Assembly (NCBI GenBank): GCA_016869175.1
Contig: VGEV01000006.1
Coordinates: 1 to 54,818, forward strand
Direction: 5' to 3'
From: Alphaproteobacteria bacterium
GTDB taxonomy: Bacteria > Pseudomonadota > Alphaproteobacteria > GCA-2731375
Length of the DNA: 54,818 nucleotides
This document shows positions 37,083 through 54,818 of this stretch, in pieces. Both the position numbers and the translations under genes were made by a program. A model generated the notes under the pieces. That model ran no database searches. It was not told the DNA's origin and saw only the letters and a list, made by a program, of their open reading frames with translations. How positions within the stretch are numbered: position 1 is the first letter of the stretch; each line of letters starts with the position of its first letter.

Positions 37083-38575
37083 TTGCCTTCGTAGTGATCG
37101 CGCACCAGCCGATCGAGCAGCCTGACGCCCCAGCCGACCGCGCCCTTCGGCACCGTCGGCCGCTCCTTGCTCGCCCAAGCGACGCCGGCGATGTCAAGGT
37201 GCGCCCACGGCACCTTGTTGACAAAGCGCTGCAGGAACACCGCGCCCATGATCGAGCCGGCGGCGCGGTTGGCGCCGATGTTCTGCATGTCGGCGATCTG
37301 GCTGTCGATCTGCTTGTCGTACGCGTCACCCAGCGGCAGCCGCCAGATCAGCTCGCCCTCGGCCTTGCCGGCCGCCAGCATGTGGTCGGCCAGCGTATCG
37401 TCACTGGCGAACAGGCCGGCATATTCGTGTCCCAGCGCCACCACCATGGCACCGGTCAGGGTGGCCAGGTCGATCATGAATTGCGGCTTGAACCGGTCTT
37501 GCGTGTACCAAAGCGCATCGGCCAGCACCAGGCGGCCCTCAGCGTCGGTGTTCAGCACCTCGATGGTTTGCCCGGACATCGAGCGCACCACATCGCCTGG
37601 CCGCTGCGCGGTGCCGGAGGGCATGTTCTCGACCAAGCCGACAATACCGACCGCGTTGACCCTGGCCTTGCGCGCGGCCAGCGCGCGCATCACGCCGATC
37701 ACCGCCGCCGAGCCGCCCATGTCCCACTTCATGTCCTCCATGCCCTGCGCCGGCTTGATCGAGATCCCGCCGGTATCGAAAGTGACCCCCTTGCCGACGA
37801 AGGCTACCGGCTTGCTGCCGCGCGGACCTCCCAGCCATTGCATGACCACGAGCTGGGTTTCGTGCGCGCTGCCCTGACCGACGCCCAACAGGGCGTTCAT
37901 GCCCAGCCGCTTCAACTGTGCCTCGCCCAGCACCTCGACCTTGAGACCGAGCTTGACCAGACCCCGGCATTCCCGGGCCAAGCTTTCGGGATAGATCACG
38001 TTGGCGGGCTCGCTGACCAGGTCGCGCGAGAAGGCGATGGCCTCGGCCACCGCCCGCAGCGGCTGGAAGGCGCGCCGCGCGCCGGTCGCGGCCCTCGCCA
38101 ACACGGTCACCGACCGAAGGCTCGGCTTCTGTTCCGGCTTCTGCGTGGTACGGTACTTGTCGAAGCGATAGCTTCCCAAGGCGGCGCCATAAGCCAGCCG
38201 CGCGGCGCAATCGGCGGCGTCGAGTTTGCCATCGGGGATTGTGTCGCTGACGATCGTCAGCTCGCTCTCGCCGCTGACCATCAAGCGCTGCACCGCGCCG
38301 CCGCCGACCGCCTCCAGCGCCAACGCATCCACCTCGCCCGGCTTGCCAAGGCCGGCAAGCAGCACGCGGTTGAGCTTGAGCCCTGCCGGAGCGATCACTT
38401 CCAGCCATTGCCCCCGTTCGCCGCGGAACCGGCTGGCCTTGATCGCCCGGCTCAGCGCACCGTTGCTGGCCTCATCCAGGCGCCGCGCGGTCGGCAGCAG
38501 CATGCCCTCCTTCAGCACAGCCACCACCACGCTGCCCGCATTCGGCAGCTTGCCTTCGTTGATTTCAACCTTCAT
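37079..38575 (-). CDS. pepA: Leucyl aminopeptidase (M17)
   Basis: A 498-residue cytosolic metallo-aminopeptidase. The catalytic domain carries FVGKGVTFDTGGISIKPA (about residues 256-273), the metal and substrate residues KWDMGGSAAVIG (about 279-290) and the M17 signature NTDAEGRLVLADAL (about 342-355). PepA homologues can also bind DNA in site-specific recombination and regulation; nothing here indicates that use. A TAATAT -10-like box lies about 26 bases upstream of the ATG, in the gap divergent from lptF. Confidence 0.96.
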   Translation of the reverse strand: MKVEINEGKLPNAGSVVVAVLKEGMLLPTARRLDEASNGALSRAIKASRFRGERGQWLEVIAPAGLKLNRVLLAGLGKPGEVDALALEAVGGGAVQRLMVSGESELTIVSDTIPDGKLDAADCAARLAYGAALGSYRFDKYRTTQKPEQKPSLRSVTVLARAATGARRAFQPLRAVAEAIAFSRDLVSEPANVIYPESLARECRGLVKLGLKVEVLGEAQLKRLGMNALLGVGQGSAHETQLVVMQWLGGPRGSKPVAFVGKGVTFDTGGISIKPAQGMEDMKWDMGGSAAVIGVMRALAARKARVNAVGIVGLVENMPSGTAQRPGDVVRSMSGQTIEVLNTDAEGRLVLADALWYTQDRFKPQFMIDLATLTGAMVVALGHEYAGLFASDDTLADHMLAAGKAEGELIWRLPLGDAYDKQIDSQIADMQNIGANRAAGSIMGAVFLQRFVNKVPWAHLDIAGVAWASKERPTVPKGAVGWGVRLLDRLVRDHYEGK

Positions 38576-54183: not shown

Positions 54184-54257
54184 TGGGGGATAGTTTAACG
54201 GTAGAACTCTCGGCTCTGGACCGAGCGGTCGTGGTTCGAATCCATGTCCCCCAGCCA
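54184..54257 (+). tRNA. tRNA-Gln (anticodon CUG)
   Basis: The 7-bp acceptor stem TGGGGGA (54184-54190) pairs with TCCCCCA (54247-54253), followed by discriminator G and an encoded CCA (54255-54257). The D-arm region TAGTTTAACGGTAG, an anticodon loop CTCTGGA with anticodon CTG, and the T-arm with the GGTTCGAATCC core are all in place. The 3' half coincides with the end of a serine recombinase frame on the opposite strand, which marks this tRNA as a probable attachment site for an integrated element. Confidence 0.95.
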
Positions 54258-54818
54258 AATCTCACTTTTGCCCGAATTGGCCATTGGCACCGCCTCTTGG
54301 CGGGCCGCGATGGCGGTGGTTTCCGCCAACAGATCAAAAGGTTGGCGGAAGGTGGCGGTCATCTCGCCGTCCGCCCAGGAGCAGTTCGATAGTACGAAAT
54401 TGAGCAGGCGGCGTTTTTGGCGCGGTTCCTGGCGCTCGAACAGCCGCTGCGCGTTCCGCGCCAGTTCGAGAAGCTGCACGCCTTCGTCCATGTAAGACTG
54501 CTCGGCGGTCTCGTGCCGGTCGATCTCCCGTTGCAGGCGCAGTTGCTCCTCGCGCCATTCGCCGGCGAAGCGGTCGTAGAAGTCGCCGCCGATCTTGCCG
54601 TCGAGCTTGTCGATGTACATGGCGTTGATGCGCTCGCCGAGCCGCTTGTGCTCGGCGCGCAGCCGCTCGATGGCGGCCTCGTGCTCGCGTCGCTCGTCGG
54701 CATGGCTGGCCTGAAGCGCCTCGCGCACCCAGCCCAGCACCTCGTCGTCGAAGCGCAGCCGGCCGAGCAGTTCCGTGAACCGCTCCTCCAGCACCTCCTC
54801 GCGGACGTATTTGCGGGT
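54195..54818 (-). CDS. Serine recombinase, C-terminal part (cut by window edge), tail running antisense through tRNA-Gln
   Basis: The last 207 codons of a site-specific recombinase of the resolvase/invertase superfamily. The visible part is the charged coiled-coil region after the recombinase domain: YVREEVLEERFTELLGRL, VREALQASHADERREHE, DKLDGKIGGDFYDR, and the ending KRRLLNFVLSNCSWADG with TFRQPFDLL, all familiar from large proteobacterial recombinases. The catalytic Ser domain and zinc ribbon would be beyond the window edge. The final 20 or so codons (from about 54257 down to the stop at 54195-54197) are simply the antisense of tRNA-Gln (DSNHDRSVQSREFYR). The native end of the protein was therefore probably created by integration at the tRNA. 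Confidence 0.85.
   Translation of the reverse strand, partial: TRKYVREEVLEERFTELLGRLRFDDEVLGWVREALQASHADERREHEAAIERLRAEHKRLGERINAMYIDKLDGKIGGDFYDRFAGEWREEQLRLQREIDRHETAEQSYMDEGVQLLELARNAQRLFERQEPRQKRRLLNFVLSNCSWADGEMTATFRQPFDLLAETTAIAARQEAVPMANSGKSEIWLGDMDSNHDRSVQSREFYR

Follow-up and report, generated by a model that had tools for sequence, protein, structure and literature searches.

A large serine recombinase that probably carries its attachment site within its own gene and is parted from a conserved C-terminal tail by integration at tRNA-Gln

The stretch of DNA analyzed here (the window) is the whole of contig C6 of genome G000, positions 1-54818, and near its right end a recombinase frame runs into a tRNA-Gln gene on the opposite strand. 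The question raised by this locus is why the last residues of a recombinase should be encoded by antisense tRNA. The frame extends on the minus strand from 54818 to 54195 and comprises 207 aa, being open at the contig end and therefore cut off by the assembly. It enters the tRNA gene from the 3′ end of the latter, with W and L codons at 54257-54252 (the complement of CAGCCA), and stops after 18 further residues (GDMDSNHDRSVQSREFYR) at a TAA occupying tRNA positions 12-14. This arrangement had been proposed in a preliminary description and was confirmed by ARAGORN together with the translated frame. The features of the junction are as follows.

54184..54257, plus strand: tRNA-Gln (CTG), identified by ARAGORN; the integration target, intact after insertion, in a gppA-tRNA-Gln neighborhood conserved in relatives of the class
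54252..54818, minus strand: C-terminal body of the recombinase, element derived, truncated at the contig end
54195..54251, minus strand: antisense-tRNA extension of 18 residues plus the stop codon, host derived
54252..54257, plus strand: the core CAGCCA, the last six bases of the tRNA, whose opposite strand encodes the W-L of the recombinase
54220..54300, no strand assigned: approximate extent of the probable attL, consisting of the host tRNA arm, the core, and the element P′ arm

From its homology, the frame at 54195-54818 (minus strand) is assigned to the large serine recombinases (LSRs), of which it represents a C-terminal portion. This rests on relatives with up to 93% identity, in which the complete protein combines Resolvase, Recombinase, and Zn-ribbon domains, and it bears out the family named in the preliminary description. 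The 207-aa fragment itself, which covers the C-terminal region only, gave no significant Pfam match and a weak match to a PHROG integrase (phrog_95; E value, 2.5e-5). Searches of the same assembly for PF00239 (Resolvase) and PF07508 (Recombinase) produced no match, and since the catalytic domain is absent from the assembly, the front of the gene is deduced to lie in an assembly gap or to have been lost.

A total of 31 relatives, taken from genomes, were compared. In 24/31, the recombinase gene lies directly against a tRNA 3′ end, this being tRNA-Gln(CTG) in 18, tRNA-Gln(TTG) in 4, and tRNA-Met in 2. As these 24 enter antisense tRNA at the same residue, past the conserved end of the body, the overlap of frame and tRNA was deemed to be more than chance, and the earlier proposal of an insertion at the tRNA-Gln 3′ end, with attL at the tRNA and an island beyond 54818, was supported. 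On the element side the junction is conserved in the relatives, and on the tRNA side it has the sequence of the host. The C terminus after W-L consequently varies by host (LGD, LGW, LGDLDSNQD, LGDLDSNQGCPGQSREFYR, etc.), and the antisense extensions range from 2 to about 30 residues, their length and sequence following the host tRNA.

Further members of the family were located at tRNA-Asn and tRNA-Pro. Distant relatives on Legionella and Neochlamydia plasmids, whose tRNAs were identified by eye, and on viral contigs also end in antisense tRNA. The related recombinases of the viral contigs (L131-L133) end in antisense tRNA-Gln TTG, and no tail was recognized in the stretches of these contigs that were examined. 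One locus (L120) was dropped as an intact gene because it is degenerate.

Junctions with sequences other than tRNA were also observed. In two Rhodobacteraceae (L021 at ~1434 and L023/L139/L146 at ~8593), the body ends at GGCTG and is continued there by TGCASCCAGTCYCGAGC and then by ACAGGGAA repeats; in G712, one of the two, the tail lies at a distance of 28 kb. At L034 (3399-3640) and L035 (273-515), the recombinase 3′ end is fused at the same GGCTG to a tyrosine-integrase-like frame with no tRNA, and an uninterrupted tRNA-Gln lies 4.2 kb from the junction. The latter is possibly a secondary integration site.

The preliminary description had also suggested looking in close relatives for an empty site at this tRNA-Gln. 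Such sites were found in class-level relatives: the gppA-tRNA-Gln(CTG) neighborhood is conserved in the class, with the tRNA near gppA in 19/20 regions from relatives, and the recombinase was absent from all 20 regions, where the sole matches were the 20 to 21 antisense-tRNA residues themselves. The comparison is one of class relatives from other genera, each with a different sequence downstream of the tRNA. The locus has the arrangement of a tRNA-targeting island, an integrase beside an intact tRNA with the site empty in related genomes. In one class relative (G018; L080, 797-2230), the same tRNA-Gln(CTG) is followed by a gene that we take to be of the tyrosine-integrase type, which suggests that the site is common to both integrase families.

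A direct repeat of 20 to 50 bp from the tRNA end had been predicted, and it is absent: the last 25 nt of the tRNA did not recur in the same genome (up to 3 mismatches allowed), and 23-bp matches at C161, C114, and C51 were rejected as unrelated coding matches. The best other match to the junction in this genome is on contig C17 (L002), which resembles the far ends of complete islands in having a P arm (cacat.gt.cgata.gt.ttcaggaacgg), then CAGCCA, then differing flanks. The two ends, attL and attR, have just 6 bp in common, CAGCCA, located on the tRNA side of attL and on the P-arm side of attR. So short a shared core is what a serine integrase, not a tyrosine integrase, would be expected to leave. 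On the recombinase strand, the P arm prolongs the reading frame through the core with the consensus WLPFLNTYRTMCLAPEPDFRRVLEEIRELRLAA-stop, so that the far ends of the islands carry an orphan exon that is in frame across the core, WL-PFLNTYRTMCLAPEPDFRRVLEEIRELRLAA-stop. For the genome under study, the native tail comprises about 31 residues (PFLKTYRTMCLAPKPEFRRVLEEIRELRLAA), and the candidate site is as follows.

C17, near 37828-37972 (L002, 1500-1645), outside the window: candidate matching attR with the orphan tail exon WLPFLKTYRTMCLAPKPEFRRVLEEIRELRLAA-stop

In nine cases, body and tail were found on the same contig, with the tail at the far end of the island, 12 to 50 kb away and in the same orientation as the body. 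The distances between body and tail are as follows.

G061, Kordiimonadales bacterium IMCC3096, complete genome: 17.8 kb from the tRNA
G062, Jannaschia seohaensis: 12.9 kb
G063, Bradyrhizobium iriomotense, tRNA-Met: 49.8 kb, with a diverged tail (WWTFLDTYRTLCIAPS...)
G064: 14.8 kb
G065: 14.5 kb
G067: 24.4 kb
G058, tRNA-Asn: 17.1 kb
G712, joined to a non-tRNA site: 28.0 kb
Legionella adelaidensis plasmid: 12.4 kb

Body and tail lie on separate contigs in the genome under study and in G146, G106, and G683. In each group, the first six bases of the tail are identical to the last six of the target tRNA, these being CAGCCA for Gln, GAGCCA for Asn, and CCACCA for Met. The C17 site is inferred to be the partner of the attL in the window, the genome having one body and one tail on different contigs. 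Pairing of C6 with C17 by synteny failed, the C17 gene that flanks attR not being found beside gppA in relatives.

It is therefore proposed, with a probability of roughly 0.86, that 54184-54818 is the attL of an LSR island at the 3′ end of tRNA-Gln, that attP lies within the recombinase gene, and that integration splits off the conserved tail. In this mechanism, the W-L codons (TGGCTG), within the 3′ end of the element's recombinase gene, would mark the position of attP. Before integration, when the element is presumably a circle, the gene would be intact and would terminate in the conserved tail of about 31 residues. A crossover somewhere within CAGCCA would cut the gene; at attL the body would read into antisense tRNA as far as a stop that depends on the host, and attR (here on C17) would keep the tail as an orphan exon beside an XRE regulator gene. 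Integration would in this way swap a conserved C terminus for host antisense-tRNA residues. The antisense residues had been described as what integration would leave; more than that, they take the place of a native, conserved C terminus that is now at attR.

Among 385 class genomes, no body and tail joined in a full-length gene were found, and plasmids, phages, and viral contigs yielded neither a circular form nor an attP junction; the sole viral pattern match for a circular form (L138) was a chance match. A contiguous body-plus-tail frame of 170 aa at L140 (1222-1734; G553:C28), which has no N terminus, W-L core, or tRNA, may be what is left of a lineage in which the gene is not split. An orphan, degenerating tail with no recombinase body, ~285 bp after a tRNA-Gln (L078/L128; G058:C19, 13402-13527), is probably the scar of a lost island.

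The detached tail evolves as a protein under purifying selection. For eleven tails, the median dN/dS was 0.18 in the predicted frame, compared to 1.4 and 2.4 in the other two sense frames; the tail pairs are not independent, and the values are descriptive. One antisense frame gave 0.37, which is expected since its third positions are shared with the coding frame. The mean pairwise DNA identity was mostly 0.65 to 0.8 in the tail (range, about 0.6 to 0.8) and about 0.27, the background level, just beyond the stop codon. These data bear on whether the locus could be no more than a common tRNA-inserted LSR island, with an incidental antisense overlap and a conserved attR sequence that is a noncoding attP half-site. 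The attP sites of LSRs flank the core, and the first ~30 bases beside the core are indeed the most conserved (identity, 0.7 to 0.8), as a half-site would be. The conservation nevertheless spans 99 bp to the stop codon and ends there, codons 13 to 33, past the usual half-site, still have a dN/dS of 0.23, and the same peptide is retained by the Gln-, Asn-, and Met-targeting groups despite their different cores. A noncoding half-site was thus considered very improbable.

Since no joined gene was found in the 385 class genomes, selection is deduced to act outside the usual integrated state. A tail that is detached in nearly all integrated copies and yet under purifying selection is presumably used when the element is unintegrated or upon reattachment by a second, tandem insertion. 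If so, integration switches the enzyme to a tail-less form, and we infer that, most likely, the activity, direction, or stability of the native-tail enzyme is changed thereby. Efficient recombination may depend on the tail, in which case integration would partly lock the enzyme. A neutral split was weighed against such a switch: the native tail would have been important in the past, or be of only slight importance now, and an enzyme ending in antisense tRNA would perform equally well. What is lost is indeed a short C-terminal segment and not the catalytic domain, and several integrated bodies retain long open frames of 547 to 582 aa. Neutrality was judged unlikely, because the selection on the detached tail implies a function in some state and because the replacements range so widely in length with the host tRNA.

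Within the proposed switch, the tail could be a degradation signal, the native-tail enzyme ending in -LAA/-AA being a short-lived ClpXP substrate that is stabilized when integration removes the signal. Most tails do end in AA (RLAA in the genome under study; LAA, IAA, or AAA elsewhere), the host's tmRNA tag, ANDNEMALAA, ends in ALAA, and a mycobacteriophage repressor loses an --LAA tag on integration, the mycobacteriophage integrase being tagged also (PMC9262239). The conservation covers the entire tail (YRTMCxAP) rather than its end alone, some tails end in FEA, AGA, or LGA, or in ILL in the case of Bradyrhizobium, and no benefit from stabilizing the enzyme after integration is evident. A degradation signal was regarded as a possible but not a probable explanation of the switch.

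Reattachment of the tail was indicated by tandem insertions. Immediately beyond attR on C17, in G067 and L027, and on the plasmid from Legionella, an older recombinase ends, and its frame now continues into the tail of the newcomer; a later insertion hence restores a native tail to the earlier copy. All older recombinase copies seen in these tandem cases are decayed.

Beside the tail on C17 are the XRE regulator gene (Pfam) and a gene that is ImmA/IrrE-like by appearance, with no Pfam match; similar frames are beside the tail in G061, G064, and G065. A small DUF5659 frame by the XRE/ImmA-like genes near the G061 tail (L091, 3541-3804), with similar-looking frames in G064 and G065, is a candidate directionality factor by position only. 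As for cargo, the G061 and G067 islands contain type I restriction-modification genes, and frames in L011 and G065 resemble such genes. Two defense-like proteins were also observed in the G067 island, namely, a TIR-nSTAND1-FGE-sulfatase protein (L102, 1105-3852, minus strand) and a metallophosphoesterase-FGE-sulfatase protein (L101, 15681-19073, plus strand).

Several known systems are comparable. The closest is DsiB, a serine recombinase of the Dehalococcoides ssrA genomic islands, whose authors suggested that its gene is whole perhaps only on the circle or beside a neighboring island with a 3′ fragment (McMurdie et al. 2011, PMC3146451). As described there, the 3′ end of the recombinase overlaps attL, the target RNA gene beyond the island boundary supplies the stop codon, and tandem islands occur; the recombinase in the window likewise lies with its 3′ end over attL and lacks a stop codon of its own. 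DsiB is a CcrB homologue accompanied by a second small recombinase, DsiA, and inserts in the T-loop region of ssrA with a 20-bp repeat (PMC3146451), whereas the island described here has a tRNA target and a 6-bp core. Its tail, furthermore, is identified and under selection, while in the parts of the DsiB report consulted no conserved 3′ fragment is identified.

The archaeal suicidal (SSV-type) integrases split their own genes, have been called exclusively archaeal, and are proposed to be rescued in trans by a related element (PMC8371274). Their attP lies in the integrase gene, as it probably does in the present family, and the split parts are at attL and attR, as observed in the nine same-contig cases. 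They differ in being archaeal and of the tyrosine family, with the catalytic domain parted from the N-terminal part (PMC8371274); here the enzyme is a bacterial serine recombinase from which ~31 C-terminal residues are removed, and the body keeps all three Pfam domains (in relatives). In the integration-dependent immunity of mycobacteriophages, attP also lies in a coding gene, attB is at a tRNA gene, and a C-terminal extension ending in --LAA is removed (PMC9262239). In that case a repressor is split by a tyrosine integrase at a 35-bp core, in contrast to the splitting of the serine recombinase itself at a 6-bp core. The tRNA islands of the Islander collection resemble this one in lying at a tRNA 3′ end with the tRNA intact and the integrase beside attL but mostly have tyrosine integrases and carry a displaced piece of the tRNA at their other end (PMC4383910). 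A direct repeat of the tRNA 3′ end of tens of base pairs is absent here, the far end having none beyond 6 bp. In searches that covered part of the literature, no publication was found that describes a conserved split tail identified in a serine recombinase.

Many annotated C termini of these recombinases are antisense tRNA and not native protein, and recombinases cloned as annotated may therefore fail. Searching for the orphan tail is a way to locate attR. The islands examined mobilize type I restriction-modification systems. Serine integrases normally require a separate directionality factor, and a recombinase altered by integration itself would follow a self-contained logic, previously described mainly for archaeal tyrosine integrases and a phage repressor and merely suggested for one Dehalococcoides serine recombinase. 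We tentatively hypothesize, at a little under even odds, that a lineage of serine recombinases in the Alphaproteobacteria, and also in Legionella, carries its att site in its own C terminus and is rewritten at each integration, the native tail being a built-in switch (a directionality or degradation signal) that marks the unintegrated state and is returned to resident copies by tandem insertions.
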